Assembly: GCA_001661515.1 (NCBI GenBank)
Contig: LUVW01000001.1
Location: forward strand, 700,582 to 764,581
Direction: 5' to 3'
Length of the DNA stretch: 64,000 nt
Source of the DNA: Capniomyces stellatus
Lineage: Eukaryota; Kickxellomycota; Harpellomycetes; Harpellales; Legeriomycetaceae
Every line of letters starts with the position of its first letter. Position 1 is the stretch's first letter. Of this stretch, positions 2,572-56,031 are shown piece after piece. The notes under the pieces were generated by a model, which was given only the letters and a program-made list of their open reading frames with translations, searched no databases and was not told the origin of the DNA. The position numbers were made by a program, and so were the translations under genes.

Positions 2572-4164
2572 ATGAAGGTAGTTGCGCAGGAGTGTTTGAA
2601 AGTAAACAGGATCGAGACGGATATCAGCGAAGAAAAGCACAAGGAGGATGGATTTGTATACCATGGAATTGACATAGAGGTCTCAAAAACAAAAAACAAG
2701 TACTACAATTTCTACGATCTGTCAGAAAAGACGGCTGATGACTTTGAGGAAAGCGGGTTGTCATCGCCAGCCTATGATGACACATACGTTTTTGACCTGG
2801 AGCTGTCGCCAAATATACAAGTTAATGTGGAGTCAGAGCAGGAAGAGGAGCATCTGATTCAGCAAAAACCAGTAGTTGAGGGGAGCAGCCTGGCAAAGAA
2901 GAAGTTTAGTTTAGGGTTTATGAGGAATGTCAAGAAACCAAAAAACAAACAGCAAGTTGGCATTCACTTTAAGTTTGGACATGGTCATAGTATGAGCTTA
3001 GACGAGTCAGAGCTGATAAAAAAGGGAAAAGACGAGGGTTGCAGCGGTGCACACCGTCCAGGTGCTGGGCTACTAGGACCCGGTTTTGGCCACTATCATA
3101 ATTTGAGAAAAAAGAAGGATAGTGATAAAAGCGCAGAGCCGGAGCCGTATACAAACACCAAGGGGGTAAGCAGGTCGCACGGCACCAAAGTAGACAGAAA
3201 TATTGCAACAAGCATGAGGGACAAGTATGGCGTAGTTAGGGGCAGTAGTGTGGGAAAGGGTACAACGGCTGTTGTTAAAGTTGCACACAAATCCTACAAA
3301 GGAAGAGATAGGTTATATGCAGTCAAAAAGTACACAAAGAGAAACAAATACGAGACTGAGCGCGAGTACATGAAGAGATTGACCAGCGAGTTCTGTATTG
3401 GGTCGATGATGAACGATGTCAACGTAATACACACAATCGACTTGATTAAAGACAAGGATGGGAATTGGTGCCAAGTAATGGACTATTGTCCTGGTGGAGA
3501 TCTTTTGAATGTGTTGAAGGACGGTACAATGCGAGATATAGAAAAGAATTGCTGTTTCAAGCAGATGCTATCAGGCGTTCGGTATCTGCATTCAATGGGC
3601 GTTGCACACCGTGACATCAAGCCAGACAACTTGTTGATAGATAGCAACTCGGTACTAAAGATAACGGACTTTGGAATCTCAGAGGTGTTCTACTTGGCTT
3701 GGCAGAACACAATTCAAATGTCTAATGGCTGTGCGGGGTCGGGGCCTTATATAGCACCCGAATGTTACAACAAATCCAGAAGATATGAGGCAAGTAAAAC
3801 TGACATTTGGTCATGTGGGATTGTGTACCTGGTGATGATTAATGGGTCGTTTCCTTGGAGGTGTGCAGATCCCACTGACCCGGAATTTTCCAAGTTCCTA
3901 AAGAGGTATGAAACACAAGGAACACAGCCTTTATTCAACAACATCCACCCACAGGCTAGAGATATAATAAGCAGGATGTTAAGCGTCGATCCAGAAAACA
4001 GGCCAAAGATAGAAGACATCCTTGAGGATGAATGGGCGAAGTCTATCGAGGTGTGCTCAGCTGGTAGCAATACAATAACGGGTCCACATTGCCATTTTGG
4101 CTTGGACTACCTGAAGAAGAAATATACTAAAGCCGATCTGAGCGGCCAAGAACCGTGTAAATAG
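2572..4164 (+). CDS. HAL4/HAL5-type Ser/Thr protein kinase
   Basis: Intronless 530-aa protein kinase. The first 215 residues are low-complexity, acidic then basic (KKPKNKQ), as in fungal NPR/HAL kinases, which tune nutrient and ion transporters at the plasma membrane. The kinase domain covers about residues 219-492: glycine loop GSSVGKGTTA (224-233), ATP lysine in YAVKKY (K252), HRDIKPDN catalytic loop (H346-R347-D348), DFG 366-368, and activation-loop end GSGPYIAPE close to the GSxPY(I/V)APE of HAL kinases. All catalytic residues are present, so it should be active. The ATG at 2572 is preceded by an A-rich leader. A hexamer array follows the stop at 4201-4230. Kinase identity is clear; the HAL4/HAL5 subgroup rests on motif resemblance and a search would settle it. 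Confidence 0.87.
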   Translation: MKVVAQECLKVNRIETDISEEKHKEDGFVYHGIDIEVSKTKNKYYNFYDLSEKTADDFEESGLSSPAYDDTYVFDLELSPNIQVNVESEQEEEHLIQQKPVVEGSSLAKKKFSLGFMRNVKKPKNKQQVGIHFKFGHGHSMSLDESELIKKGKDEGCSGAHRPGAGLLGPGFGHYHNLRKKKDSDKSAEPEPYTNTKGVSRSHGTKVDRNIATSMRDKYGVVRGSSVGKGTTAVVKVAHKSYKGRDRLYAVKKYTKRNKYETEREYMKRLTSEFCIGSMMNDVNVIHTIDLIKDKDGNWCQVMDYCPGGDLLNVLKDGTMRDIEKNCCFKQMLSGVRYLHSMGVAHRDIKPDNLLIDSNSVLKITDFGISEVFYLAWQNTIQMSNGCAGSGPYIAPECYNKSRRYEASKTDIWSCGIVYLVMINGSFPWRCADPTDPEFSKFLKRYETQGTQPLFNNIHPQARDIISRMLSVDPENRPKIEDILEDEWAKSIEVCSAGSNTITGPHCHFGLDYLKKKYTKADLSGQEPCK

Positions 4165-5595
4165 TCATAACCAATCAAATAGTTTATATTTTAGTTTATA
4201 TTTTAGTTTTAGTTTTAGTTTTAGTTTTAGCCAGTGCTAGTGCTAGTGTACTAGTATGCTAGTATCAATACTTTCTTTTACAGAAAGTTTAGTACTGTTT
4301 TTGTAATCTTGATAATCGACAAATAATTATTTGAAACATCAATCACTGCCTGGCAAAGCAGATCGTTTTGGCCATGGGTTTACAAAATACTATCTAAAAA
4401 CCAAAGCATTCAAGACTACCTTTTAGCCACCAGTAAGCCACGCCAATAAGAACCTATAATACATCCAGCACGTGGTAGTCAAATTTAGAATCTGAGCTTA
4501 CGTTTAAATTAAGAAACAGATTATCTGTCTTTTTCTTGGTTTTAACAAGCGTTATTCAGTTGTCATAAACATGGACAACAAATATAATATATATTGCGTT
4601 GACCATAGTTATATTATACTCAGTTTATTCTCAACAATAAACTCATCTTGGTTAACATCAGTAAGTCCATACTATTGATTAATTGAAACCAAACATTGCT
4701 TGAACCGAATTAAACACAAGAAGGTTATAACTTTCAAACTCGCCTTTTAAAAATAAACATCATTATAAAGCTATCAAGTAAAACTAAAATTCGGATCTAA
4801 ATTGACCAAGTGGAATGTAAATTTAATACCTTTAGTAGAAACGTGTCTAGATCGAGACTGCTATTTCAAATCAATCGTGGCTTTTAAAAGCGCGGTATCT
4901 TTGGCATGTAATGAAACTGGCCATCAGGTATAGGTTTTTACGTATAAAGATGTAATAAAAAAAACAAAAAAAAGTTTTAAAAAAAACAAGAAAGGTAAAT
5001 AACACGGCTTGATTTGGATCAAAGGGCGGGAGCTAAATCAAGTTCAAAATAGTAACCAACATTTCAATAATAAAAAAAGCAGTTACCAGCCTACCAGTTC
5101 AGCAACAAAATCGAGTGGGAAAAAAAAAAGATTTGTTGTTCTGGATTAGTTAATCTCGCATCACAATAACTGAGTGTGCCCAGTAGCATTCCAGTGTAAA
5201 TAAATATTTTAGATTCGTGACTTGAAATAAAAATAAAATATCCGCGAATTTACGTTTTGGTCAAGTGGGTCAATCGTTAAGAATGCTGCAAAAGTGTAAA
5301 AAGAATGGAGATGAAACTCGATGAATAAAAGGTAAAAATAAAGTTTGTAATAGTACTAACGCGATGTTAATCAGTGTACAATAAAATTAACTGAAAGAGG
5401 GAAAAAAAAGTGTAAAATTGAACAATAGAATATAATAAACGATAAAAGCCCGTAATATACATATTCAAAGCAGTAGAAACAGAGTCAAAACCGACAGCAA
5501 CAACAAGAACGATAGTAGCAACAAAAAACCGCAAAACAACACAACACAAAAGTAAAAGCAAACGTAAACGTAAAATTAAAGGGCTGAGCAATAAA
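4165..5595. other. Intergenic, kinase 3' side to asparaginase 5' side
   Basis: No gene seen. It contains the TTTTAG array just after the kinase stop, a patch of CTAGT-type short repeats (about 4231-4266), many A tracts, and presumably the promoter of the asparaginase gene starting at 5596. The last 150 bases are A-rich, as a fungal 5' leader often is. Confidence 0.6.
4201..4230. repeat. TTTTAG hexamer array (5 copies)
   Basis: Five perfect tandem copies of TTTTAG begin 36 bases after the stop of the HAL-type kinase, probably within its 3' UTR. It is one of several hexamer arrays in the window. Confidence 0.9.
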
Positions 5596-8500
5596 ATGAA
5601 TAAAATTAATGTGGCAGATAGCGACTTGCACTACAGCGATTCAGCTCAATTTCGTGAAATTTACGAGTCGAGATTTGGAAACGAAACTTTGGGTACTTTA
5701 CAAATGCCTTATATATACGTGTTAAAGATATTAGCATAGTTCTGCTGTTGTTGGTTGAATAAAGTAGAGGTCAGGTTTGTTTTCTAATATCATTTGGATT
5801 GGAAATAAAAATTGTGAAAAAAAAACAGGAGTGTCAAAAGTGTTGATAATATACACGGGAGGAACAATTGGCATGGTAAACAGTAGTGACAGTGGGTATA
5901 GGCCAGTCGATGGGTTTCTTTCGCAGTATTTAAAAAGCCAACAGAGGTTTCACGATAAAGACGGGTTCGATGAGTATATTCAGCAACGAGCTATGAACAA
6001 TTTATCCATGGCAGAAACAGAAGCAGGGGAAAGTGGTCACAGAGCACGCACAAGCAGCTTGTTTAAAGAAACCAAAGAGGACTCGGCAGAAGAGGAGGGA
6101 TTAGGCGAGTGGCTTATAACTCCAAAAATGATCCATGGAAAAAGAATAAAGTTAGTAACACCCAGCACTTTGCTTTACAGTTCCAAAAAAGGACACACAT
6201 ATATACAGAGATGGCATTAAAAAACAAAACTAGAGTAAAAAAATAAAGATATCGTATGCAAGGTTGAGCTAGAAAGTGTCATTTGGCTTTTGCCCAAGCG
6301 ATGAAAAGAAAAATAACAACCAGTGGCTAGATGAAAACATCACCCAAAGGGGATGCCAACTGTTTGAAAGGTGTTGCATTAACACGTTTTATTTTCTAAT
6401 AACAGGTATAGAATTCAGTCGTATACACCGTTGCTGGACTCGTGCAACATTGGAATGGATGGTTAGTAGCAGTTTACCTTTGTGTTTGTAATTCGGTTTA
6501 GACTAAAGGATTTGCCATTGTTATGGTGTTTATTAAGGATTTGTGGATTTAATGACTTTATAGACTGGACAAAGATAGTTTCAGATATTGAAAAGTCGTA
6601 TTACAAATACGATGCGTTTATCGTGTTGCATGGTAAGCACGGTTTATATATATATATTGCATGAAATATCACTGTTGTAAAGCAACAGCAGCAGCAAAGG
6701 TGAAGCTGAGCTATAAACGGCATTGTATTAATATAGGAACTGACACGATGGCGTACACAGCTGGAGCTTTGAGTTTTATGCTGAATAACTTGGGGAAAAC
6801 GGTGATAATAACGGGTTCGCAGGTCCCAATATCAGAAGTTCGTAACGATGCAGTTGAAAATTTGCTTGGTGCTCTGATAATAGCGGGCCATTATGTCATT
6901 CCAGAAGTTACGCTGTACTTTAATAACAACTTGTTTAGAGGCAATAGAACGTCCAAAGTCGACGCCATGAACTTTGCGGCGTTCGACAGTCCAAATCTGG
7001 CACCACTGGTGCAGGTTGGTGTTAATATAGGTACTTGCGACTCTATCCGCTATAAATTAGCATTAAAAATTGAATAATATATGGTTTACATGTCTGATGG
7101 CTTAAATCGGGTTGAACTGACCTTTGTGCGTGTGTTTTCTCATTTATTAAAATATAAAACAGAGATAAATTGGCCACTGGTATTCAGACCAAACGCGATA
7201 GCAAAGTTTGGAGTGCAAAAGGTTATGGACCCAAATGTAGGGACTTTGCGGCTTTTTCCAGGAATTACAAAAGCGTCTATAAGGTCTTTTTTGGCGCCAC
7301 CATTAAAGGGAGTTGTTCTTGAGACATTTGGGAGCGGGAATATACCAACTAGAAATAGTGACATCCTAGACATGTTAAAGGAGGCTAGCGACCGAGGAGT
7401 TGTGGTGGTGAATGTAACACAGTGCCAAAAGGGAAATGTTGTTGATTTGTACGAAACAGCGCGAGGGTTGGCTGAGAGTGGGGTTGTAGCAGGTGGTGAT
7501 ATGACTTCTGAGGTAAAAAGAAGGATGTTTTAAATATATTGAATTAAACTTTGTACTTATGTATTTATGTATGTATGTACGTGTTTATTTACGTGACTAT
7601 TTATGTGGTTATTAACGGGTTGAATGGGACAAAAAATGGTGGTAAATTAGTGTGCACTGACAAAACTGAGCTATTTGATTGGGAGTGGGTACAGTCCAGA
7701 AAAAATACGAATGCTTATGTCCCGATCATTGAGAGGAGAAATAACGCACATTAGAGCGTCCCAACCCACTGTTAGCACCGATCCCAAAGTTCGAGCAGCA
7801 ACATTTGTCCAGTACATATCACACGAGATCATCAACAAGAAGCGCAATACTGATAAGTTTATAGTGGAGACGCAGGAATTAGAGGATGAAGATGGTCATG
7901 ACAACTTATCTGGAGTTGGGAACTTGGAGATCAATGATCAACGCGGACTGGGTCTCAGCACAAGCCAGAATCCAGAACCAGGTAAACTATCTCAAAGCAG
8001 CAACGGTGCTAAGTCAGATTCAGACAGTGCAATTTATATTAAAAGCAGTGTGTCTAAGCCTAGTTCCGAGATGGACACGAAGGTATCATTTAAAAGCACC
8101 GGTGGTGATTTGGAGCCATCCAAAGATGCGCTACTCCCAACTCGTGGGGAGAATTTGAGGCTCAATTCCCAAAAACTGTCGCCCAACACAGCCAGTTCGG
8201 TTAATAATTCTCCAAACTCAAACATTTATGTCAATGCTAAAAAAGCCATAATTTCAGAACAAGAGCGATCTTCGATCTACAGATCATTCTTCCCGGTATT
8301 GCTATGCGCAGCAGCATCCACAAACGACGTAGTGGGGATGCACATGTTGAATACTGCAGCTGAAAACCGGTTGGAGACGACTTGCTATGATTACAACGGA
8401 AAAACGCCACTGGTAAGATCTACGCCGTTGTTTTATATTTTGGTGGCTTTTTTTTTGGGTAGATGGTATTTTTAATGAAACGAGATTAACGGCAGCATAA

Positions 8501-13476: not shown

Positions 13477-14494
13477 AAATTTTAGCCAAAAGTAATAATT
13501 AGCTTCTTAATATCAATAAAAAGGAAAAAGTAAAAATTTGCTAGTCGAGTGGGCAAATCCAATTCGACGGACTAAAAGCCAGTAAAAAATAAGAAGGTTT
13601 GTTTGTGAGCAGATCATTAGCATGGATCGTAGGAGGGCAGTATTAAAGTGTGTCATACTGGGTTGTTTGGCTACAAGCTAGGCTGGCGATAATTTAATTG
13701 TAAATAGTTAGGCGGAATCGGGTTTAAATAGCCAAGATATATAAACAAAAGCGCATAATTGCAAGAAAGAACAAAAAAAAATGGTATTAGAAACGAAGTC
13801 TACAAAATACAATTTGATGGAGTACCATTAGTATTACTTGCATAACTATTATTTATTATTATTAGCATTATTGCTTTTATTTATTTGTTTTTTTTTGCCA
13901 GTGTGTAACACGTCAACGAAAAAAAAACATAGTATTAGCATCAACGAATGAGACGCTTAATGCAAGAATAAAGTAAACACAAACACTGAAAGGAAAAAAA
14001 AAGGAAAGAGAACATTGCAATAGTGATGTAAAGGGAGATTTGAAGGCAAATTAGATGTAGTTGAGAATAAAATGGGGTTTGCTTAATTAAAACGAACAAA
14101 AATAACAATAAAGATCCCAGAACTCTAGATGAAATATTTGTAATATTAAATTATCTAATTTAGCAAATAAAAACAACTTTCTATTAAACAAAATCAAGAA
14201 CAATAAAAGAGTCGACTAAAAAAGCAAACGAGCAATAAAAATCTTGGTTGTATTGTAAAATCAAGTCAGTTGAAGTTTCTACACTTGAACGTCAGAAAAT
14301 TAGAAAAGTCGATATAAAAAGAAAGCCGGGCTGTACCAAATAAACGTCGGAGCTAATAAACAAACGGAGAAAGCGAGAACCTTGTTTCAAGAGTCAGTAA
14401 AGAGTAAAAATAACGAAAAAAAAGTCGAAACAAAAAGTGGGGAAAATCTAAAGCAACAATAAAGAGAGAAAGTAGAGGAACAGAATCACGAGTA

Positions 14495-17400
14495 ATGTCT
14501 ACATATGCAGATTCGGCACCTTACAATAAGGAGAAGGTTGTAGGTAATGAAGAAAAAGAGGTTGTTCGCACAAGAGGGAGAAGAGTTGATTCTTTTTTGG
14601 CTGAGGTAAACGTCAAAAACACAAAGTTTGAAACAAACCCACAAAGAGCGGATAAAGAGGAGGCAAAAAAACCCAGTATAAATGACAGGCTTGGAGTCGC
14701 TAATGTGGGTAAGAGCAAAGGCACAAAGAATGCGGGAAAGGCTAATAACGAAGAATTGGTCAGAGAAATGGGCGTGTTGATGAAAAACCAAGCGAATAAA
14801 ATAAATGCCACAATAAATAGGGGAAATGAAGACAACAAAAGAGTAGGAGTGAACATAAGCGTCAATAGCGGTGACAATAATAATAATAATAATAATAAGA
14901 CCAGTGGGGAAATGGGCAATAGCAACGAAAATGCAAATTTAAGGTTGCAAAAGCAAGCCCAAACCCAAGGCCAAACTCAAACCCAAGGCCAAACTCAAAC
15001 CCAAGGCCAAACTCAAACCCAAGGCCAAACTCAAGCCCGAGGCCAAACTCAACACCAAGGCCAAGCTCAAGCTCAGGACCAGACTAAAGCTCAGAGCCAG
15101 GTTCAAGGTCAAGATCAAGGACAAGTAAATAAAGAAAAAGTCAAAGTGAAAGCACAAGCCGAGAGCAGAAACATCAGCGGAAACAGTGCGAGTAATAGCG
15201 TCAATGTTAACACCATTAAAGACAATAAAGGGTGCGGTGGTGAGAATGAAGGCAACGATGGACCGGATGTCAGTAGTTTGCAGGAAGAAATGGTAACTTA
15301 CAAGGAGTTTGAAAAGAAAACATTGTACTTTTGGAATGTATGCAAGGAAGGAGTTGAGATTCTGCCAAAGGTCTTGAAGGCGGTAAAAGCGATAAAGTAA
15401 TACATCTATTAAGCTTACAATTTAAAGATTATATTCAAATATAGTTATGGTTTAGAAAGTTGAGCGGTAGTTGACGAATTTGTTGTTTGTTTTGATTAAA
15501 ATGATAATTTACGTGTTATTAGGGTGAACGTTGATCCTAGCGATGGCGAGGAATTCAGCGGAGACATATTGTTCAAGACCAGAGAACAGACAGAAAAGGC
15601 TTTTGCTTTTTTAAACAACCAAAAGCTGGCGCAAGAAAGTAAGAAACAGATGATAGTTTCGACAAAAAAGGGAGTTATAATACGCAAACCGATGACAAAC
15701 TCGATCAAGGTGGGTCAGTTGGTTGGTAGTACGGATGAAAACAGTTTGTATGACTTTTTAAGGGTGGCAGGGCCGATATACTCGATTCAAATTATCAGGG
15801 GGGTGGATTATCTAGCGTTCAATGATGGGAGCCAGGTAATCGTCAACAAGAAGAGTACAGGTGAAAATGAGATCGAAGGTGCTTTGGATAAAGGAGAATC
15901 TATTTATAGCTGCAAAGGAAAAGCGTATGTACAATATTATGGATCTGAAAGCACGGATATCGCGGTGCAGGAGCTAACATACGGAACATACAAAGACCAG
16001 TTGGTGGGACTGAAGATTATTGGGATCAGGAGAAATTCAAACGCGTTGCTCGGATCAGAAGGCAATAAAGTGGTGCATAGTAAAAAAGAAAGCGGATATG
16101 AGCAGATAAACTGCACGGATGTATCAAATAAAAATGGGAGAACCCCGGCAGATGAAGACCAAAAACCAAATCCAGAACCAAATCCAAAATCAAATCTAAA
16201 AGTTGGCACTGGCCACCCAATCACCAACACAGAAGATACATCAACATCAACATCAACATCGACATCGACATCGACATCAACAGCAACAGCAACAGCAACA
16301 GGTAAAGCGAAAGCACCAGGGACATATTCACCAATAGCACGGATAATTCCTGGAAAATTATTTATTTCGAATTTAGCAGAAACAGTGTCCCACTCAGAGC
16401 TATTCCAGCTGTTTAAGCCATTTGGGTACATACACAGCGCAAGAGTAACGATAGATCCAAAAACAGGGAGATCAAAGGGTGTGGGATTCGTCCAGTTTGG
16501 AAATCCAGAGGATTCGTTGGCAGCAATGAAGGCGTTGGTTGGGATAGAGTTAAAAGGAACCGAGATTTCAATCTGCCAATTTGAATATTTTGGCAAGACT
16601 GTCAAGCAAGAGAGCAAGGTACATAGCACCGCCAAAAATGGAGCCAAACTGTTGGATGCTGAGTGCGATTTGCGTGATGAAAACGATACTAGCTATGATG
16701 GCGCCAAAAACATCAGCATTGGTAGCGGTGGCAGAGTGGGAGGTGATACTAGCATCAAAACCAATGTTCTGGACCCAATATCCGAGTCGGTGCTGCAAAA
16801 CCTGTCGCAGTATGCAAGAACAGAGTTACTGGCGCAAAAGCTAATATACGAGATCAACAACAATCCCCTGATTAGCGTAAACGTAGATGGATCACTTAAT
16901 GCAATAGGAAACAAACGGGTGCCTTTGGTCATTTCCAGGTTGATAAACAGGCCGCTACCAGAGGTAATTGGAATGCTTGACGACCCAGAGGTACTGAATT
17001 CCGAGTTTAGGAGAGTGGCAAAAATGACGAAAACGGTTGATCCAGACAACCTGCAAAGTGCAGCAAATGTACAAAACGTACAGTTGCAGATTGTTAGGGA
17101 TGTTTGGGCGCGAGTACTTGGAGAGGAGAAGATCCACGAAAGCTACGAAGGAATGTACCAGCTCAGTGGTATTGGCTCAAACCACATCGATATGGACAAC
17201 GAATCTGGCTATGATCATGACTATGACCATGACTATGACGACACCAATGATGGTACCGATGCTGGAGTTGAGGGTGGTGTATTAAACAAGCAGTACATGT
17301 TAGCAAGCAGCATAGACAACAATACAAGTACTGGTGAAAGTAAGCGAGTGTCTTTTGGTTTGTTAAAGACGAGGGCAGATTTGAGTATAAACACGGAAAC

Positions 17401-43743: not shown

Positions 43744-46700
43744 ATGGATGTTGAGGTTGAAAAGTCTGGAAGTGAAGATAGGGATGGCGCAATAGCTCCA
43801 AGCGCGGCGAGTAGCAAGCATAAGCTAGAGCAGTTAGAAAATAAAAGTAAAAAAGGACAAGGGATGGAAACAAGGAGTAGAAAGGAGAGAAAGAAGGAGA
43901 AAAAGAATGAGAGAAAAGGCAAGTCAAAAATAGTCTCTGGGATCAACGTAAGCCAGATAAATACCGGGAAAGTTGGTGACAATGGAAAGGGGAATGAGCT
44001 TATAGGGCTTTTTAATGAAAGCGAAACAAATAAACTGCCAAACACCCACCATTTGGGTTTAAAAAACAGCTCCAAAGCGAATGAGCGATACACAGATGGG
44101 GAGTTTAGTGCAGTGTCAGTCGAAAACAGATTTTTTGATACGACCAAAAATCCAGGGGTGCAGGACTACGACTATGCCGATCATATAGCACACAACAGAA
44201 AGCTAGAAATTGAAATGGACAGGAGCTATAACCATATGCAGAGAATCATATTTAGTCCACAGCTAAAAGCGCTCCAACAGCTAAACATTATGTACACCGT
44301 CGATCTCGCTTCGGTTATACAGCCGGACTATATGCTAAGCAAAGTAGAAAGTGATTTACTTGTAAACACGCTGCCTCCCAGTACGATGAGTAGAAACAAC
44401 TGTGATAACCGCGTACCTAGCGGGGCTTTAAATGAAACCGATATAAACGGCTTTCAAATTCGAAATACGAATGGCAGCGGGTATGAAAACTCGATAACAA
44501 TTGAGAAAAAATCCATATTTTTTGACAATACGGTGCTGGGAATTGATGGAAATTCTGAAGAAGGCAATGTAGGCTATAAGAATGACAGCTTTGTTAAAGG
44601 AGACAAAGGAAATAGTGCTGGAAGAAGGTATCAGGTGGATGGTAAGGGTCAGGTTCGGACCAAAGGGTTAGCAGCAGGTGGGCCTGAACTTGGGAGTACT
44701 AAGAATAGGCAAGTAAAAAATGCCGGTGGTAAATTAGCTGGGGTGCTTGATAGGTATGGCGACGTTATGGTAACAAGGTCCAAGAACTTGGTAAAGCTGT
44801 TAGCAACAAAAGTTCAGAGTAAAAAAAACAAAGATGAATTAAACAAGGGCCGTGGCGTTAGAGATAGTATCGGTGCACCTAGTTTGGGGAATCTCACAGA
44901 AATTAGTTTTCAATATAGCAGATACAGTACGTTTAAAGATTTGTACCCGGATGATACGGGTGTCAAATACGGAACAGATGGTAAACACAAATCCAAACTG
45001 TCGATATTGTTTTCAGAAGGCATGAACCACATAAAGGAGTTTAAAGAGTACAATAAAAACAACAATTTTAAGGAGCTAATTGAATTTGGGGAGAAGTTTT
45101 TAAACGACAAGCAGGGTTTGGATATACTACCACCACAATTGAGCTTCGGTTATAAAAAAAAAAAGCACGGAGCTGATTACGATTATAGCAGTAGGTTTAT
45201 TCTGGGTGGTAATGAAAATATCGTTGTTCAGAGCCCAACAAGAAGCCTGGAGATATGTAGCAAAGAATTTGGCGAGGAAAGCGGTGAGGAACACAGTGTT
45301 AAAGGCTCTAAAGTCATGGAAGTAAAGGAAATGGCAAATAAAGAAGGTGATCATTTTTACAGCCCTGGAAAGATGCTAGTGACTAGAAATTATAAAGATA
45401 GTACTTTAGAAATAGACGAGATAGAACAAACCACCAGTGGTAAAAACAAGGCAAGCAACAGAACCAGTACAGATAAATCCAAAAACGCCAATCTTGACTC
45501 TGACACAATAGATGGCGGTAAAATCTGTGAAAATGAGCATGGCGAATGTAAGCAGAGTAAAAATTCAATATCCGAGCGCAATAGCAGTGCCATAAATCCA
45601 GAAGATGAAAGATATGAAGAAGGTTTGGGGCTTATATGTAGCGAAAATGTCTATGGAAACAGCTATGTGGTAAAAAGGACCAATACCAAAAAGGCCAGCG
45701 TATCAGCCAGCAGTAAAGACATTGATGAAATAACACCCAAGAATACCGAGTATGGGGCTGTATGCAAACAAAATGTATACCAACTTCCTCATGTGATAAG
45801 CAAAGGAAGCAGAGATATTATCATAATACCATCCAGCGAGGATTACGGTTACCTGGATAACGCAAGCCGATCTATATCTAGTTTATTTGATGATATATTT
45901 GCCAACAATAGGCACAAAAAATATAAAGATGCAGTCAAATCAGGAATTTTTGGGAGATCACAAGCATATCTACCCAATAGGCCAAACCACAGATATAAGC
46001 TAAAAAGCAGGCGGAGGAATAAAAAAAAGCCAAATTTGTATAGAAAAAACAATACAAGCAGATACATGGGTATATATAACGACATTTACACGGACAATAG
46101 CAAAATGTTTGGCGTGATTGTTGATGATGATGAAAGCTTGAGTGAATCGGACGCGAGCAAAGATACTCCAGAGCTTGACAAAATCTCGGACAGCAGAGTA
46201 CTGGTTGGAAGCAAAATACGTGTTGGTGCGGTAAAAAACAACAGCACTAGATATTTTTTAGAAGGCGGAAGTATGTATATATACACAAGCAGATTTAAGG
46301 GGTCCCAGAACAAAGGTATAAAAAGCCTGAAAGTTTTTCGAAACCATCTGAGAAAAATATATAGAAAGAGTAGAAAAGGTAGAAAACCAACACCAAAATC
46401 GCAGTTGAAGACGAAAGCAAGATTTAAACAAAAACCAGATTTAGGGTTTAAACTAGGAGCTGGCTTGAGGTTGGACAAATTTGTTCTGGATCCATCTAGA
46501 CGTGTGTCGAATAGAATAATCAAGAAAACGGCAAAATTGTTTAAAAGGATTGGCGTGGGCAACACCAGAAAGTCCATAATCATGAGTCATAAAAGTTTGA
46601 AACATAGCAATGGGCCACTGAACAATGGAATATGGAAGAAAAAAAGGAATACTAGTCGGAATAAACAGAAACTTGGAAAAATCAGTGTAAAGAAAGCCCT

Positions 46701-49700
46701 AGGTCTAGGCTATTTAAGCAAAAAACCAAATATAAATTCAACCCATATTGGCGTTTATCATGCTAATAACAGCGTCATTAATAGTCAGAGCTCCAACATC
46801 AAAATGTCCAATATTAATAATGGAAACACAATAGGCACCATCAGCCCATCATGGATAATATCATATATATTCAGTCTAATAGGATATTGTTTTGGTGTAC
46901 TGTCAGCAAAGGTAGGGTGTGTATTTCGTGGCGTTATGCGTGCTGTGGGTTTGAATAGCAGAGAGACGGATTCTGGTTCAGAAATAAACGAAAATAGATT
47001 CGGGGTGAAACAGAACGACACTCGCTCGACGGTTGATATGCTGATATTCTCGACTTTAACAACTTTGATGGTGGTGTTCTTAGTTGTATGGACTCTGTTG
47101 TTTACAAGCGGAATATGCTCGTATCACTCCGCATTTGTAGGAAATGATGTGAAGAATAAAGAGTACTTTAGTGGGCTGGGGGTTGTTAGCGATATCAACG
47201 AGGAAAGCAACCAGAAGTTATATTCCAAGTTGTATGACTACAGAGGCTGTGATGTATCAAACTCGCTTACGCCTTTCGACAGCTATTTAACAAACAGCAC
47301 CAAAGATATTCCACATAGCTTTTGCTTTGTCAACGAAAAATTAGGTAAAAACTGGCTAAATTTTCGAAAGTCGTGGATAGAAAAAAACATTTCTGGTGGA
47401 AACAAGACCAGCATCTATTCAGAGCCAAGCATTAACCTTTTAGAAGATGTAGATGAATTTAACAGCGCAAAAGTAGGTGAATACCGATACATTGTTAATA
47501 GGATTGACAAGCTAAAAGACTACCCTGGACACCTGGTGGTTATTAGAAACAAAGTGTACGATTTTGAAGAATATCTAAAATACGCGATAATAACCAAAGA
47601 AGAATCCGACTTGATTATAAAGAACTACAACAAAACAGAGGAGGCTGGTAAACCCAAGTTGGAGATGTCTGAAGCCTCAGGTGTGAACCATATTTACTCA
47701 AATTCACATCTTTTAAACATCACAAACAACTTTGTAAATCTAAGTATAGATAGGTCCTTTGTGTCCGCGAAATTTACAACTCTGATTATAAATTCAAAGG
47801 GCAGCGATATAACTAGCAAGTTTCATGAATTAGTCAAAAGTGTGGTATTTATTGATGGGGGAGTCAAGTATGACGATGGAAATGATGGCAAGCTTAATGC
47901 AAAGCTTACTATTGAGTGCCTTGACAAGCTATTTTACCGAGGACATATAAGCATAGTATGGGCTAAGCTCACCTGCAATGACGTGGTTTCTCTAGGTTGG
48001 GCTGTATTTATTCCTTTATTTGTGGGAATATTTATTAAGATTCTAACATACCAGATTATGTGCTGGCGTTGGCAAGGCAAATTCTATTTGTCTGGGAATT
48101 CAAAAGAGGGAGTAGCTACCATCAAACTTAAAAATGGTGTACAACCTAATAGTTGCAAGGAATCGAAAGATGTAGCTCTAAATAGACTAGATGACAGGGC
48201 TGGTGTGTTCTGGAGCACCTCTAAAAGCCTTTTTTTGAATTTGATTGGAATATTCAAGAGACTTGGCCCTAGAGATAACATCAATAGCTGTAGTGATGCG
48301 ACTAATGAATGCGCTGGATGTGGTGGGTGTAATGGATGTGGTCGATGTGGTCGAGATGACAGTTTAGTTATAGTAAATCAAAGTATTCAACATCCAAGCT
48401 CTGTAAATCAACACAACCAATCTAGTTCTGGCTGTTATCAATTGGAAAATAAATCATATTCACCTGGTTTAAACAACAAAAACGACATTCTTGGGTTAAC
48501 TGATATTTGCTCAAAAAACACTGCAAAGAACTACGAAAACAAATATCCCGGTGCGGTTCAATCGACCAACGGAATAAAGGATCTTAACTCGGTAATGAAT
48601 CACGCAACACAAAACTCAGAGGTATACATAACACCAACACTTATATCCAATATGCAAAAGAAAACGCCTATTAAAGCGCTAAAGAGAACCAACAAAGAGA
48701 TTGTCTTGGTTGCAATACTCTGTTTAAAAGAATCTTTCAATGCGTTGACAAAAAATTTTCAAGCCATTGCAAAGTCGTCATATCCCAGCTCTAAGAAAGC
48801 TATAATACTAGTAATTGATGGAGATCAGGAAACTTTGAAAAATGCCCTAAACGTGGTTTCTTATATGGGGACTGCACCATCACCAAAGATTTATGGAACG
48901 CAAGGGACGACTATTAGGGCCCTAGACGAGGAATCTAGCATTGGGCTTAGCTCATCCAGCATTTTCAATAACGATGGATATAGCAGTGAAGGCTATCTGC
49001 TTGCCAGTGTATACTCCGGCACTTATGAGTGTGGTATAAATAGAATCCCGTACATCATTGTTTCAAAAGAGACGTACCAAGGACATGTAGACTCACTGAT
49101 GCTTATAACAGGAATATTTAGAGGTGTTAATTGTGTTAAAACTGAATATGAATTTGAGCCTGAATATGGTAACTCAGATGGCCTCAGAAACAGCAGAAAG
49201 TTCACATCACCATTGCAATGTGACCCATTGCAAAGCACATGCAATTTTAAAGGGAATATAAATCTAGATTGTTCTACTCTTACCGGTTTAAAACTGGAAG
49301 TAGAATGTCATGAAGGGAATAAAGCTGGAACTGGAAATACCCGCAATGCAAAAGATAATCTTGATGTTATTGCTGATAATAGAATACTGTCGACTGAGAA
49401 TTTCACTGATCTGTATAGCAAACCATGCTTTACCAAAGATAGCAACAGAAATGAAACTGGCTCGCAAGTTATTAATAACCAAGACATCAAGCAAAACCAA
49501 AATCAAAACCAAAATCAAAACCAAAATCAAAACCAAAACCAAAACCAAAACCAAAACCAAAATCAAAATCAAAATCAAAATCAAAATCTGCAAAAAAAAC
49601 ACACATCTAATCAATACCACAAATACAAGGACAGTAAAAGGAGAAATGATAGTAAAAAAAGCAGATCAAAGCAAAATAAAGCCAAGGAAAACCCAACTCT

Positions 49701-51372
49701 GTTTTTGGAGGATGAAATAGACCATTGTTTCAGTCAGCTGGGAATTCCTCTAAATCATTTCAGCTACTTGATGTTTTTAGACCCCGAAATTGTTGTTGAA
49801 AGCTACGCCATTGAGGCTATGGTGCATCGTATGCAGAGAGATAGGAACGTAATGGCTTTACAGGGGTCTTTGTCGGCCTTAAACAGGCTAGAATCCGTAG
49901 GGCTGATGATGCAATCCTTTGAAATATTTCTAAGATATAAAGTCGATGCCTCTATTGAGTGTTTATTTGGCTGTCCGTGCTTTAAAGTTCTGGGCTTTAC
50001 TATGTATAGAATCTGGTTTGATCAAGGTAATACAAGTAGAGATTTGAGCGACACTGAAGTGATGAAGAGCTCTGAAATCTCTAACAATAGCAACATCGGA
50101 AACATTGCTGACGAAATCGACATCAGTAGAAAAATCCAGTTTATTGGGAGCTTGGATTTAGGTTCCAACTTAAAAAAATATTTGAAGCCAACACTTCACA
50201 ACAGACATTTGTGGTGGCAGACAGGAGACTCTTTCTTGGCACTTTTACTTGTAAAGAGCTTTCCTGTTGCAAAGTGGGACTATATTCCGATATCTACGGC
50301 CTATTTATACCTGACACCTAATATATCATACATTGATATTATCGAACGACAATGGTTCAAGACCACTTTGCACATAAATCTCGAGCTGATTGATATACAT
50401 AAAGATAAGATTTCGACTGCTTTAATTTATCCTGTACTCAGAATCATTGGTATGTTCCTTGGTACGTGTATTGTTCCGTTCATCTTTCTGCAGATTATTC
50501 TAGCCTTTCTAAAAATTGCGCAATTCCCCTTGGTTGTTTGCCAATGTCTGGGAAGTCTGATAGTCCTTACAAGTGTTGTACTGATTGCGTCAGGGACACG
50601 TAAATCGGTTATACATATGATTGTTTACTTGTTTATTGGACTACCCTTTTACTACGTTTGGATTGCATTAAGTGCCCTCTTCACTATGAACTATGTTTGG
50701 ATAAGTTCTGACCGCCTGGGTAGATTCAAATATATTAATCACAAGTTGACCGCCGAAACTCAAAGCAAGTCTGGAAGCTCTGATCGGCAAAACAGCATTA
50801 ACCATAGTACGTACATGCACCCAAGTATGAGTTACAATAGCGCGGACAATAGTAGCAATAGTAGGGCCAGCGCTGTTATTGGTGGTAGCAATAACAACAG
50901 CCGAACTTACAACCGGAATAGGAGCACCGTAGCCAATACACAATCGGGAATTTTCAACAAAGCAAGCCAAAGCAGTCATGTTGGTATGCATTCTATCAGC
51001 CAAAGCAGGCAATTGGATCTTTTTGGGTATCCAAGCAATAGAAATACAAGCAACTCGATGTTTGTGCCTACTAATACAAACTCGTACTATAGCCAAAAGA
51101 TTGTGAGACACTCTAGTATAAAGACCCCAGAAAGAGTATTGAGTTCGAAGCGTTATCCACACTACGACATAAATAACTCGCTTTTTAGCATTGGTCATGG
51201 CCCCTACGCCCCTAGTTTCAGCGAATACGGCAGATTCATCACCTCCAAAGCCACCAACAGCAAAGCCAAAAGAACCAGCCTTTCAACTAAACGTAGCAAA
51301 CTTATAGCCAACGTATATAGAAACAAAAGCGATCCAAGTCCCACAAAAAAAAAAGACATGACTAGCCCGTAA
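43744..51372 (+). CDS. Giant degenerate chitin-synthase-like GT2 membrane protein
   Basis: Intronless, 2,542 aa from the first ATG at 43744. Residues 1-1095 are low-complexity, K/R/S/N-rich and basic. Then: transmembrane segment about 1100-1128; cytochrome-b5-like block LVVIRNKVYDFEEYL (about 1264), as in class IV/V/VII chitin synthases; second transmembrane segment about 1417-1440; a Cys/Gly patch (CAGCGGCNGCGRCGR); a GT2-like region from about 1652 (EIVLVAILCLKESFNALTKN, ILVIDGD). Class signatures are recognisable but altered: GKRDS is QGHVDS (1779-1783), DADT is DPEI (2013-2016), EDRYL is TGDSF (2160-2164), QRRRW is ERQWF (2201-2205). SFEIFLRYKVDASIECLFG matches the class block before CLPG. 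An NQ-repeat insert (about 1918-1949) lies inside the catalytic region. Five or so C-terminal membrane helices and a Ser/Asn-rich tail follow. It descends from chitin synthase, but is probably not a normal one. Confidence 0.8.
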   Translation: MDVEVEKSGSEDRDGAIAPSAASSKHKLEQLENKSKKGQGMETRSRKERKKEKKNERKGKSKIVSGINVSQINTGKVGDNGKGNELIGLFNESETNKLPNTHHLGLKNSSKANERYTDGEFSAVSVENRFFDTTKNPGVQDYDYADHIAHNRKLEIEMDRSYNHMQRIIFSPQLKALQQLNIMYTVDLASVIQPDYMLSKVESDLLVNTLPPSTMSRNNCDNRVPSGALNETDINGFQIRNTNGSGYENSITIEKKSIFFDNTVLGIDGNSEEGNVGYKNDSFVKGDKGNSAGRRYQVDGKGQVRTKGLAAGGPELGSTKNRQVKNAGGKLAGVLDRYGDVMVTRSKNLVKLLATKVQSKKNKDELNKGRGVRDSIGAPSLGNLTEISFQYSRYSTFKDLYPDDTGVKYGTDGKHKSKLSILFSEGMNHIKEFKEYNKNNNFKELIEFGEKFLNDKQGLDILPPQLSFGYKKKKHGADYDYSSRFILGGNENIVVQSPTRSLEICSKEFGEESGEEHSVKGSKVMEVKEMANKEGDHFYSPGKMLVTRNYKDSTLEIDEIEQTTSGKNKASNRTSTDKSKNANLDSDTIDGGKICENEHGECKQSKNSISERNSSAINPEDERYEEGLGLICSENVYGNSYVVKRTNTKKASVSASSKDIDEITPKNTEYGAVCKQNVYQLPHVISKGSRDIIIIPSSEDYGYLDNASRSISSLFDDIFANNRHKKYKDAVKSGIFGRSQAYLPNRPNHRYKLKSRRRNKKKPNLYRKNNTSRYMGIYNDIYTDNSKMFGVIVDDDESLSESDASKDTPELDKISDSRVLVGSKIRVGAVKNNSTRYFLEGGSMYIYTSRFKGSQNKGIKSLKVFRNHLRKIYRKSRKGRKPTPKSQLKTKARFKQKPDLGFKLGAGLRLDKFVLDPSRRVSNRIIKKTAKLFKRIGVGNTRKSIIMSHKSLKHSNGPLNNGIWKKKRNTSRNKQKLGKISVKKALGLGYLSKKPNINSTHIGVYHANNSVINSQSSNIKMSNINNGNTIGTISPSWIISYIFSLIGYCFGVLSAKVGCVFRGVMRAVGLNSRETDSGSEINENRFGVKQNDTRSTVDMLIFSTLTTLMVVFLVVWTLLFTSGICSYHSAFVGNDVKNKEYFSGLGVVSDINEESNQKLYSKLYDYRGCDVSNSLTPFDSYLTNSTKDIPHSFCFVNEKLGKNWLNFRKSWIEKNISGGNKTSIYSEPSINLLEDVDEFNSAKVGEYRYIVNRIDKLKDYPGHLVVIRNKVYDFEEYLKYAIITKEESDLIIKNYNKTEEAGKPKLEMSEASGVNHIYSNSHLLNITNNFVNLSIDRSFVSAKFTTLIINSKGSDITSKFHELVKSVVFIDGGVKYDDGNDGKLNAKLTIECLDKLFYRGHISIVWAKLTCNDVVSLGWAVFIPLFVGIFIKILTYQIMCWRWQGKFYLSGNSKEGVATIKLKNGVQPNSCKESKDVALNRLDDRAGVFWSTSKSLFLNLIGIFKRLGPRDNINSCSDATNECAGCGGCNGCGRCGRDDSLVIVNQSIQHPSSVNQHNQSSSGCYQLENKSYSPGLNNKNDILGLTDICSKNTAKNYENKYPGAVQSTNGIKDLNSVMNHATQNSEVYITPTLISNMQKKTPIKALKRTNKEIVLVAILCLKESFNALTKNFQAIAKSSYPSSKKAIILVIDGDQETLKNALNVVSYMGTAPSPKIYGTQGTTIRALDEESSIGLSSSSIFNNDGYSSEGYLLASVYSGTYECGINRIPYIIVSKETYQGHVDSLMLITGIFRGVNCVKTEYEFEPEYGNSDGLRNSRKFTSPLQCDPLQSTCNFKGNINLDCSTLTGLKLEVECHEGNKAGTGNTRNAKDNLDVIADNRILSTENFTDLYSKPCFTKDSNRNETGSQVINNQDIKQNQNQNQNQNQNQNQNQNQNQNQNQNQNQNQNLQKKHTSNQYHKYKDSKRRNDSKKSRSKQNKAKENPTLFLEDEIDHCFSQLGIPLNHFSYLMFLDPEIVVESYAIEAMVHRMQRDRNVMALQGSLSALNRLESVGLMMQSFEIFLRYKVDASIECLFGCPCFKVLGFTMYRIWFDQGNTSRDLSDTEVMKSSEISNNSNIGNIADEIDISRKIQFIGSLDLGSNLKKYLKPTLHNRHLWWQTGDSFLALLLVKSFPVAKWDYIPISTAYLYLTPNISYIDIIERQWFKTTLHINLELIDIHKDKISTALIYPVLRIIGMFLGTCIVPFIFLQIILAFLKIAQFPLVVCQCLGSLIVLTSVVLIASGTRKSVIHMIVYLFIGLPFYYVWIALSALFTMNYVWISSDRLGRFKYINHKLTAETQSKSGSSDRQNSINHSTYMHPSMSYNSADNSSNSRASAVIGGSNNNSRTYNRNRSTVANTQSGIFNKASQSSHVGMHSISQSRQLDLFGYPSNRNTSNSMFVPTNTNSYYSQKIVRHSSIKTPERVLSSKRYPHYDINNSLFSIGHGPYAPSFSEYGRFITSKATNSKAKRTSLSTKRSKLIANVYRNKSDPSPTKKKDMTSP
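48301..48357 (+). repeat. Coding Cys/Gly-rich short repeat
   Basis: TGTGGT-type units code for a CxGCGGCNGCGRCGR patch in the linker before the GT2 region of the chitin-synthase-like protein. Confidence 0.75.
49495..49590 (+). repeat. CCAAAA/TCAAAA hexamer array coding (NQ)n
   Basis: About sixteen AACCAA/AATCAA hexamers code an uninterrupted Asn-Gln tract inside the GT2-like region of the chitin-synthase-like protein. The same hexamer family occurs in an intron of the CDK gene at 57389-57468. Confidence 0.9.
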
Positions 51373-52124: not shown

Positions 52125-53842
52125 CTACTTTCTAGTTGTGTTTTTGGCCACAAGACTTTTATTTTTGCTTTTTTTAAACCTGACAACTCTAGTTCGGAAT
52201 TTCACCAACGTTCTACGGTTTATCTGAGATACTGTCCCAAGTTTAACTGTATGAGTTCCTAACAATTTATTAACTCTGTCTGTTGGAGCTGTAGCCAAGG
52301 CATTTTTGGTAATCAATGTTCCGGTCTTAGTTGGCATCACAGGAGTGGGCTTGAGATCTAAATTTGATTGTAAAAATTGGTTAGGCCAAGCATTTCCAAA
52401 TGAAAAAATAGATAACAATGCATTCTTTTTTACATCCTCATAAAAGCCAAAATCTACTCTCATGGCTTGGTTGTGTATAGCTTGTGTACGCCAATAGTGC
52501 AAACGCAACATTAGAACCATACCTTTACTTCCCAGAGACAAAAAAGATGCTAAAAAACCAACCCCAATGGGGTTTTGGGTCTTTGGCACATTAAGAGGCA
52601 TTGTTAGCTGTTTGGCTGCTGGAAGGCTGGTAGTAGTCATACCACCGCTTGGAGTGCTAATTTTGGCCTGTGTATGCGCTAATTTTTCAGATATGTTTTT
52701 TTTTCATGTAAGTACGAGTCTATTTATTTTCTATAGGACGCGATATACTACTAAGAAGTGGCTCAGCCTGTTTATAGCTGTCATGATTATAATTGACACG
52801 CACTATTACTAACTTACTTTTTCCATCAATTTTACCAACAGCTGTGTTTGCTACCGTGTATAGTTGTTATTATACCAATGCGGTTAGTAATTAAGACAAT
52901 TTATGCATACAATTTTACTGGGGTGTATAGGTGTTTGAGTGCTGAAACAAAGGAATTTCTACTAGTATTAAGTACACTTACTGAGTTTTTCATGTCTTAT
53001 TGCAGCTGGAACAACTAAAGGCGGATTTCCCGACTCTTTGCTCTTACCATTATTTAACGAGTTAGCTGTACCTTTTAGCCCTGCACTTTTTACTATCCCA
53101 CCGGCTGTGGCATTTTGTCTCAGATTGCTTACTCTCTCTGCTACTAATTGGGTGATGTTGCCTTTGGTCAATGGGATAACTACCTTGTCGTCTTTTGTGA
53201 TCTTATAGTTACCTAGGAAAATTAAAAAGCCACTTTCAGATTAAATACATAAGATTTAAAAGCTGGAAATCGACAAAAATAGTTAAGCCAAGTACTGGAA
53301 TGTCAGTTAAGCAACTTTACATTACCTTTTCCAAAGTATTTTGGTAGAACATTTCTAATTCTCGTCAACAACCTTGTAAACGCAGAGCTGTTCTTTGTGG
53401 GCGGTGGTATTAAACCGGATCGAAGGTTAGAGTTCAGATTGGTAATCGAGTTTGATTTAGGTAGCGTACCCGATGTAATTATTGTGGTGGTTGCTGGTTT
53501 AGTCGCTGGTATTTTGCACTTCTTTTTATGTTTGCATTTGTTATTGCATTTTTGGCTTACTGCGCATTTTTTTGAGCAGCGGTTTGACATTCGCTTCAAA
53601 CACTTCTTTACGCATTTGCTAGCACAGCCCTTTTTGCTGACCTTTGCGCACTGTTTAGCGCAATATTTTTTAAACCTCTTTTCAACCAAACACCTGTATG
53701 GGGTTTTAATACCTTTGATGCAGTTTTTAGAACCCACATTTATATCAATCTCGACTTTAACACAGTCTCCAGGGTATGCATAGGTTCCCTGCAATCCTGC
53801 ACAGACCAAGGAGGTGAAAAGTTGTATATATCCTATTTTCAT
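52125..53842 (-). CDS. Secreted Cys/Lys-rich protein, unknown family
   Basis: Exons in transcript order: 53842-53326, 53212-52982, 52850-52818 (33 nt), 52678-52125; 444 aa, phases 1, 1, 1. A clear signal peptide (MKIGYIQLFTSLVCAGLQG...YA) is followed by a domain of 13 cysteines within residues 27-109. Many are spaced C-x3-C in a lysine-rich background (YCAKQCAKVSKKGCASKCVK, CNNKCKHKKKC). The remainder is basic, Ser/Thr/Asn-rich and without a transmembrane helix: PATKPATTTIITSGT, then a folded-looking stretch around LHYWRTQAIHNQAMRVDFGF and a basic C-terminus (KFRTRVVRFKKSKNKS). I recognise no family. It may be a secreted wall or host-facing protein, but nothing in the sequence fixes a function. 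The short third exon and the exact acceptor of exon 4 are the least certain parts. Confidence 0.72.
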
Positions 53843-56031
53843 TTTTATACTTGTATAAGACTATCTAGAATTCTAAAAGGTTGCTAGCTCGGTATATCTG
53901 TGTGGTGTATAGAAGATATTATATATGTTTAGAAATAAGAGTAGAGATGTAAAGTTGATATCAAGCTGAAATTGATATTTGGAGTTTTAGTGGCTTTTAA
54001 CTTATTTAGAATTTAAAAAGCACCAAAAATAATAATAGTTCTAAAGTGTATTGTATCTGTGCTAACAGTAATAATACTTTCCAGATCGATACTTGTGTTT
54101 ATAACCACTATACTTTGCTTTTGCTTTTGCTTTTGCTTTTGAAAACCTGGACTTAATTTATGCGTTTTAGACATTTTGGATGTTTCAATATATGATCAGC
54201 ACTAAGCGCCTTGTAAGCCAATGCACGAATGCTCAAAAGCTTATCAAATACAAGCTAGTCCCTGTTTCACTTTTAGTCTAACTGATTCTCCTATGGGTTA
54301 CATCTAGTTATGATGTTTGATCTACAACTTGGGACTTGGGACCTTTTAATTAATCGATTCCAGTTGATATTCTATTAATATTAATAGAACTCCCCCCCCC
54401 ACTTCATTGATAATTATATTTTTGTTTGAAAATTTTGAAATGTTCTATTTCTACCAACGGCCCGTTTTCCAAAACCTTCTTTTTCAACACTTCAAGAGGC
54501 ATTTTTTTCTTCTAACTGGCGCCTGTTTCCATCAAATGAGCAAGGGTTTGGTTATAACACACATATCAACTGTCGGTTTTAATGAAATTATGTATCTAGC
54601 TGCAAACACTGAAAGCTGAGATTTAATTAAAAGTGATAAATTAATAAAAAAGCAGATAAGTTAAAGCGAAAAGGTGTACGTTTAAGTCGTTATATCCATT
54701 TAATCTAGCCACTAAATTGCACTTGAATCGATCAATCCTAATTTACTTTGAGCAAGGTTCCAGAACTGTAATTGAAAAAAGCAAGGTTCCAGAATGCCAT
54801 TAATTAACACAAAACTACGAATTGATCTACTAAACATAATCTTAATAATAGTCAGATAGCATGGCTATCAAATATGAAGGTTCGATAAGGAAACTGGGTT
54901 AGGGCAAACATAGTAAAGATATAAATAGAATCTGGAGCTACGGTAATATACAAGCTAATAAATAAATGCGCAGAGTTGTAATTCATACTATATTGGAGTT
55001 TAGCAGTAAGAGGGTCAAGTTTAAAATAAACGAGTAAATCAACATAACAGTTCAGTTACAACCAGACAAGTAATAATAGTTTAGGTTATACACCAATAAT
55101 CTATGAATGTTGAATCATACATATTATTGCTAAAATAAAGTAGACACAAACTGCAACCTACTAGTCGGTTTATAGTTATGAATCCGCTTCACAGCATGAG
55201 TCTGCCTATGTCTTGTATTGATCTACAACTCAAGCAGCCCCAAGTTTTTTTTTTTTTACTTTGCAAAAAAAAACATATTCTTTTCTTTTGTTAAAAGAAA
55301 TAAAAGCAAAGTAAATTACTGTATTTTTAGAATGTAACATTGAGAGCTGACCCAGAAAAACCAGTTAGCAGTGTTGAAGGGAGTTGGCTTCAACTTAAAC
55401 AAAAGCAAGTCGAAGTAGCAAACCAAATATACAGTATGTATATGTAATTATTCTACAGTTTTATGTTTTGGCCCACCAGCCTCCTACTCTGTATTCTGTA
55501 TTCTGTATTCTGTATTCTGTATTCTGTATTCTGTATTCTGTATTCTGTATTCGGTGTGTGTAATAGTTATAATATATTGCAAAAACACTTGTCTTTTTTT
55601 ATTTCCAGTGAAACAATGCGTGTTCTTATAACCATGAAAGAACCAAAACTAGATCCGATTTACCGTTAAATGAAGTACACTTCCATTTAAATATTCTATG
55701 CTTCTAAATTTCAAATAAACAAATAAATGTGTTAATACTTTTACTCCAATAATTCGTATAGTTGGCTGCTAATTTTCCATAAAGCAAGCGGAAAATAAAA
55801 TTAAGTTCAAACCAAAAACATTTACTCAAAAATTCAATAAAAGCTAAATAAAAACATTCACTCTTGACCTTTTTTTTAAAGGTTACCGGCAAATCGAAAC
55901 CAACGAAAAAAGAATAATTCACGCACAAGCAATAAATTAAAAAGTGCAACTATGAAATTAAAGCTATAGTGACTGGTTAAACCCTTCTTGAACAAATAAA
56001 CGAAATCAACAATAATTAAGCTAGTAGATTA
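53843..56031. other. Divergent intergenic with a heptamer array
   Basis: About 2.2 kb. It contains a TTTTGC-type run (about 54114-54140), a run of nine C (54392-54400) and a nine-copy TCTGTAT array (55488-55550). Two open stretches (55179-55244 and 55331-55434) could be exons of a small gene joined in phase 0, but I could not complete or identify it. The promoter of the CDK gene should be at the right edge. Confidence 0.5.
55488..55550. repeat. TCTGTAT heptamer array (9 copies)
   Basis: Nine perfect tandem copies of a 7-bp unit, either intergenic or in an intron of a weakly supported small gene. Confidence 0.95.

Follow-up and report, generated by a model that had tools for sequence, protein, structure and literature searches.

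A giant chitin-synthase relative with altered signature motifs appears to be a maintained gene of Capniomyces stellatus, a gut symbiont of a stonefly (PMC4974312). The gene lies in the window, the 64,000-nucleotide stretch of DNA analysed here (GC 37.3%), and was compared with the rest of the genome (24.51 Mb searched, 59 contigs). Its Pfam match and order of parts support descent from a division-2 chitin synthase, selection seems to have constrained the frame through most of its divergence, and efficient chitin synthesis is predicted to be lost. Our leading reading is that of a maintained single-copy division-2 descendant which would not polymerise chitin efficiently and would work as a membrane pseudoenzyme or as a partner subunit; taken as a whole, it falls somewhat short of an even chance.

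Family membership and order of parts

At E ≤ 1 the giant protein matches a single Pfam family, Chitin_synth_2 (PF03142; 4e-20, 72.4 bits against a gathering cut-off of 27), with the best stretch at residues 1999–2095, as expected of the chitin-synthase descendant that the first-pass annotation had proposed. None of the other Pfam GT2 families is matched, an NCBIfam search with the protein gave no match, and a PDB sequence search with the protein alone returned just weak matches to an unrelated enzyme (best E 0.28). The profile of 91 canonical catalytic cores described below aligns with three collinear stretches, for a total of 85.9 bits. Hydropathy and alignment to the paralogues give the division-2 order of parts: extension, membrane segments, presumed lumenal region, GT2 region and C-terminal membrane segments (Table 1). 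By hydropathy and homology, the protein is probably sited in a membrane with the GT-A domain on the cytosolic side.

Table 1. Parts of the giant gene and its product, with positions in the window
Feature	Residues	Position	Strand	Remarks
Whole ORF	1–2542	43744..51372	+	2,542 aa and stop; one exon as read; ATG at 43744, stop ends at 51372
N-terminal extension, K/N/S-rich	1–1036	43744..46851	+	no Pfam domain at E ≤ 1
Two hydrophobic segments	1037–1061 and 1095–1128	46852..47127	+	hydropathy, paralogue alignment; place of the canonical N-terminal membrane segments
Presumed lumenal region	1124–1408	47113..47967	+	weak similarity to chitin-synthase lumenal domains
Hydrophobic segment	1411–1441	47974..48066	+	hydropathy, alignment; precedes the catalytic region
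GT2 part 1	1652–1693	48697..48822	+	CYSEG to CLKES; DG kept, D1692 = first Asp of D,D,D
GT2 part 2	1754–1796	49003..49131	+	YSGTY; GKRDS to GHVDS
Low-complexity stretch, 200 residues	1797–1996	49132..49731	+	replaces 17 canonical columns
GT2 part 3, ungapped	1997–2090	49732..50013	+	DADT to DPEI, CGET to QGSL, QVFEY to QSFEI, CLPG to FKVL
GT2 part 4, ungapped	2149–2218	50188..50397	+	EDR to GDS, QRRRW to IERQW
C-terminal hydrophobic segments	within 2225–2315	50416..50688	+	hydropathy, alignment; SWG to VWI next, at 2318–2320
S/N-rich C-terminal tail	2331–2542	50734..51369	+	without DEK_C

The layout of a class IV/V/VII enzyme with a cytochrome b5 part, as first described, survives in the order of parts and not in the class assignment. 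Segment order, lumenal region, GT2 region and three aspartates are shared with the division-2 chitin synthases of classes IV, V and VII, among them two paralogues (L012 and L013) and protein P0003 of Smittium culicis, to which the giant protein is 23–24% identical over the aligned part; the alignment is ungapped over blocks of 94 and 70 residues. In contrast to these enzymes it adds the 1,036-residue extension and has no myosin head, no DEK_C and no Cyt-b5 or CHS4 domain above threshold. The myosin head and DEK_C, traits of classes V and VII, are both absent from its Pfam matches, as is CHS4, and Cyt-b5 reaches 15.6 bits, under the cut-off of 23.7. The cytochrome-b5-like part is faint. Against a profile built from 79 chitin-synthase lumenal regions the protein scores 10.5 bits (6.2 for its best single domain), and 200 shuffles reach no more than 4.5 (3.9). 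The WREK motif is missing at the N-terminal membrane segments.

Class assignment was attempted and failed. Class profiles, a rough guide because the groups differ in size, score 73.9 bits for V/VII, 69.9 for IV, 54.9 for the L019 type, 48.9 for L011 and 47.0 for the L014 type, and the tree leaves the protein on a saturated branch. The tree has 44 rows and 267 columns (32 database rows, nine paralogues, two division-1 rows and the giant protein). It sets the giant protein on the division-2 side, outside every starred set, at the end of a branch of about 10 changes per column, where the median branch has 0.074; the highest identity to any row is 29% over the 267 columns. Since the division-1 rows are badly aligned, the main grounds for placing it in division 2 are the Pfam match and the part order. 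The fold model made from the sequence without relatives is poor (pLDDT 35.4), and a putative GT-A fold gains support just when relatives are supplied to the prediction.

The extension is as long as first claimed, more than 1,000 residues, although its pronounced basic character is limited to about residues 751–1050. Nothing like it was found elsewhere in the genome by a protein search in which 19 of 25 candidates were scored. That it could be a degenerate myosin motor is not supported: the score is −0.9 bits, 27 rows score higher and shuffles reach 5.6.

Signature motifs and the low-complexity stretch

The reference for the motifs is a set of 91 canonical cores out of 129 sequences (120 database matches and the nine paralogues). 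The database rows are the best 120 of 5,139 profile matches, a choice that favours ordinary enzymes; 38 sequences were dropped for lacking one of two anchor patterns or for a core outside 380–650 residues, and this choice by anchors overstates how well the first and last motif are conserved. A position counts as invariant when 98% or more of the 91 cores conserve it and the giant protein is aligned there. Motif names and roles follow the available part of a review (PMC12653383).

The statement that all signature motifs are altered goes too far: eight of nine are changed, DG alone is intact, and key residues persist inside several of the others. The first-pass annotation was right that GKRDS is changed, but G, D and S remain. 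DADT is replaced as described, with its first Asp (D2013) retained and a Glu (E2015) standing for the second Asp of DxD. Where GDS has taken the place of EDR, the donor-binding Glu has become Gly and the general-base Asp (D2162) is still there. With D1692, the D,D,D of the processive GT2 signature is therefore complete. The Gln and Glu of QxxEY are retained, and the Pro of the gate loop (CLPG, VLPGA) is Val. QRRRW had been read as ERQWF; the ungapped register gives IERQW instead, which retains the middle Arg (R2202) and the Trp (W2204), while Gln has become Ile and the last Arg Gln, and QXXRW is no longer present. MAFFT did not align the GHVDS piece, whose register was therefore set by hand; that of VWI was hand-placed beyond the profile match, and MAFFT yields the same pairing with a gap. 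The remaining seven registers sit in stretches aligned by the profile itself.

The motifs have fared no differently from the rest of the domain. Invariants are kept at 13 of 31 motif positions and 23 of 61 others (Fisher p = 0.82), 36 of 92 overall (39%), with 56 changed, whereas the lowest canonical row, L011, keeps 95.7%. Acidic invariants (Asp, Glu) are kept at 9 of 14 positions against 27 of 78 for the others (p = 0.07), and by simple arithmetic the odds of keeping all three aspartates at 39% retention are about 0.06. By these counts the whole domain has diverged without the active site being singled out, and acidic residues are favoured slightly at best. Such domain-wide divergence tempers the pseudoenzyme reading, under which motif loss would be expected first, as well as that of a changed specificity.

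Mutants of distant relatives indicate what the changes may have cost. In Phytophthora sojae Chs1, as far as the available text of the study goes (PMC9556331), activity disappears when the first two signature aspartates or the general base D496 are mutated, and the giant protein has counterparts of all three. The same text reports a loss of about 95% of activity in E495A, complete loss in P454A and great impairment in R536A and W539A, together with a contact of R538 to the diphosphate; the counterparts in the giant protein are Gly, Val, Glu, an intact Trp and Gln, respectively. In NodC, according to the accessible portion of that report, alanine at the Q(Q/R)XRW residues inactivates the enzyme, with the Arg of this motif predicted as the residue that binds the diphosphate (PMC4132801). 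By analogy with these single-residue mutants, efficient chitin synthesis is predicted to be lost.

A working chitin synthase with an alternative active site is accordingly very improbable. The catalytic aspartates and the acceptor Trp would be in place for it and the predicted fold would be compatible, but the gate proline, the EDR Glu and the Gln and Arg of QRRRW are reported to be necessary in other enzymes, and EDRXL and QRRRW are well conserved in all the classes covered by the available part of a survey (PMC4734345). An active GT2 with a changed output is unlikely but carries more weight. In such an enzyme D1692, D2013/E2015 and D2162 would carry out transfer and, with the gate proline and the QxxRW helix missing, the products would be short oligomers or would involve another donor or acceptor. 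Against it, the protein lacks the EDR Glu and the diphosphate-binding Arg, and such losses cripple those relatives that have been studied; the survival of all three aspartates is weak evidence, given the chance computed above; and Chitin_synth_2 is the one GT2 family of Pfam that is matched. Against loss of polymerisation, the leading reading, a dead enzyme would not need the three aspartates, the acceptor-side Trp or the somewhat better retention of acidic invariants, and the even spread of losses between motifs and other positions also speaks against it.

The (NQ)n tract reported inside the catalytic region is real: (NQ)15 occupies 49495–49584 (residues 1918–1947), within the 200-residue stretch between the GKRDS and DADT positions. 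Shorter expansions also occur in the protein, with 60 residues for 46 columns and 58 for 28. As a special feature of this gene the tract does not hold up, since similar tracts lie in open frames at eight further places in the genome (C57, C56, C32, C15, C58, C21, C45 and C18); low-complexity insertion seems to be general in Capniomyces stellatus. An in-frame intron over the NQ stretch is not supported, as no GTAAG, GTGAG, GTATG or GTAAA donor occurs between residues 1791 and 1962.

That the odd motifs are an artefact of a wrong gene model, an assembly error or an unspliced intron is the least probable of the explanations, with hardly any chance of being right. The probable source assembly is Illumina-based (PMC4974312), (NQ)n repeats can be mis-sized, and there are unknown bases elsewhere, namely a run in locus L009 of the same genome and seven N in the rest of the window. 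The frame itself has no N, however, and the changes fall inside the ungapped blocks; the 200-residue stretch reads through and shows none of the four donor types between residues 1791 and 1962, and the eleven paralogues of the same assembly have QRRRW and EDR.

Maintenance of the frame

There are no internal stops in the 2,542 codons, and a neutral simulation indicates how seldom this would happen by drift. A canonical core of 473 codons was taken to four divergences, with 100 runs at each, and stayed open in none of the 100 runs at any of them. Drift to 80% identity with the start gave at least one stop in all 100 runs, and drift to 29% gave at least 14 stops in each of 100. The real 29% identity includes change on the other lineage; the runs to 80% and 60% are the more cautious yardstick, and their outcome is no different. 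The absence of stops in the real frame, against stops in every simulation, argues for constraint through most of the divergence, and is compatible with a recent loss of function. The claim that an uninterrupted frame of 7.6 kb means a maintained gene is thus upheld.

Codon use is less like that of an ordinary chitin synthase. Scored with the codon use of the paralogues, frame 1 is highest of all six frames in every one of the 13 blocks (200 codons or fewer each), a lead partly owed to the stop penalty on the other five. With synonymous choice alone, the giant gene compared with the paralogues scores negative in 11 of 13 blocks. Its GC3 is 0.39 against 0.46–0.75 in the nine chitin-synthase paralogues, and its codon use is nearer the background than that of any of them. 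This hints at low or stage-limited expression.

A strongly relaxed or recently dead gene, without present function, is improbable on balance. The saturated branch, the background-like codon use with its suggestion of low expression, and the failure to find an orthologue in limited searches would all suit it. The intact codons, in the face of simulations that never stayed open, are against it, as are the paralogue-like part order and the retention of 36 of 92 invariants when the consensus is matched at just 23 of 141 variable positions (less than 90% conserved). The paralogue-unlike codon choice, which may mean little expression, is likewise a point against the leading reading.

Relatives and possible roles

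A search of the genome with PF03142 gave 14 matches: nine division-2 genes at about 540–900 bits (one of them, on C13, in two stretches), two division-1 loci, and the giant gene with two matches. The division-1 loci, on C48 and C21, have QRRRW in their translations and are the only two loci matched by PF01644. QRRRW and EDR are present in all eleven of these ordinary chitin synthases. The giant gene is the sole divergent copy seen, with 19 of 25 candidates scored and room for weak copies to remain. Searching with the giant protein gave 19 matches: the gene itself, ten at ordinary loci (eight genes) and eight of NQ low complexity. Its identity to the nine division-2 paralogues is 19–23%. The best listed database matches of these paralogues are mostly from Harpellales and other Kickxellomycotina (Smittium, Furculomyces, Coemansia); L019, among the matches listed, is 73% identical to a protein of Zancudomyces culisetae.

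Orthologues of the giant protein were sought in several ways. With residues 1090–2330 none was found at E ≤ 0.001 among 7,978 candidates scored, where NQ words are suspected of swamping the search, and with residues 1995–2335 none at E ≤ 0.01 among 1,386. Both searches cover proteins of about 1,398–4,448 residues that share exact 5-residue words, a filter that shorter or fast-evolved orthologues would escape. A profile search with seven of the nine division-2 paralogues and the window piece showed no orthologue in the best 120 of 5,139 matches, and a tblastn search of plasmids with the giant protein gave no match.

L011 (G000:C13:417000-426500, 2858-7228, − strand), which is 35–38% identical to its nearest listed database matches, resembles the giant protein in belonging to division 2 and in its long branch (0.97), and differs in its retained invariants, QRRRW and EDR included. 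A sister relation between the two is not supported, as just 1 of 15 derived L011 residues is common to both. NodC and the hyaluronan synthases share the D,D,D, and the predicted GT-A core would be close to that of hyaluronan synthases; yet NodC, in the accessible text, keeps Q(Q/R)XRW (PMC4132801), and Pfam ties the giant protein to the chitin synthases with no match to NodC or hyaluronan synthases.

Chitin-synthase-like proteins without QXXRW have been met before. In the available part of a large survey (PMC5122149) they appear as "class VIII" and are set aside as dubious; the giant protein resembles them as a family member without the motif. In what is available of PMC4734345, class VIII falls inside division I and, as in all classes, QRRRW is conserved. 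By comparison of descriptions alone, the giant protein, a division-2 descendant, is unlike a division-I class VIII. We take the class VIII of the two surveys to be one class, in which case they disagree on QRRRW. Since relatives lacking D,D,D,QXXRW are discarded by at least this large survey, in its available part (PMC5122149), maintained copies that are poor in these motifs could escape notice. Term searches of the open-access literature turned up no report of a pseudoenzyme or catalytically inactive chitin synthase among the titles listed.

Redundancy favours a loss of polymerisation, as nine division-2 and two division-1 ordinary enzymes are encoded in the same genome. Under the leading reading, the giant protein would keep its membrane position with a cytosolic GT-A domain and could serve the ordinary chitin synthases as a regulator or as a subunit that does not itself polymerise, possibly by hetero-oligomerising with them or by binding UDP-GlcNAc without processive transfer, and the long N-terminal tail could be an interaction or trafficking segment. 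The partner role is suggested by yeast Chs3, which is reported, in the part of the source available, to oligomerise through its N-terminal region (PMC5412288). A pseudo-chitin-synthase, kept through most of its divergence as a membrane-embedded, non-polymerising subunit or UDP-GlcNAc sensor regulating the active enzymes of this insect-gut symbiont, or else a GT2 that uses the same three aspartates to make some other short glycan, is a possible though doubtful joint account. If the giant protein does regulate or redirect active enzymes, it would stand out as an uncommon example of a pseudoenzyme at work in the synthesis of fungal walls. The protein is also a natural experiment that could separate the conserved residues required for fold and membrane insertion from those required for polymerisation.

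Among the neighbouring frames examined there is no wall-synthesis cluster, and the neighbours offer no functional link. One is threonine-rich with a hydrophobic stretch near the C-terminus, and another has a protein-kinase match below the Pfam threshold. A small Cys/Lys-rich frame at window 53303–53860 (−) has, by eye, a signal-peptide-like start; its sub-threshold Pfam match to LELP1 is probably due to chance. Elsewhere in the genome, L018 (G000:C7:65500-74500, 1634-8434, + strand) encodes a chitin synthase of the myosin type whose myosin head covers profile positions 47–543 of 679, and the motor may be incomplete. A further low-complexity tract, a long TQGQ-type repeat, occurs in an open frame at window 14414–15400 (+).
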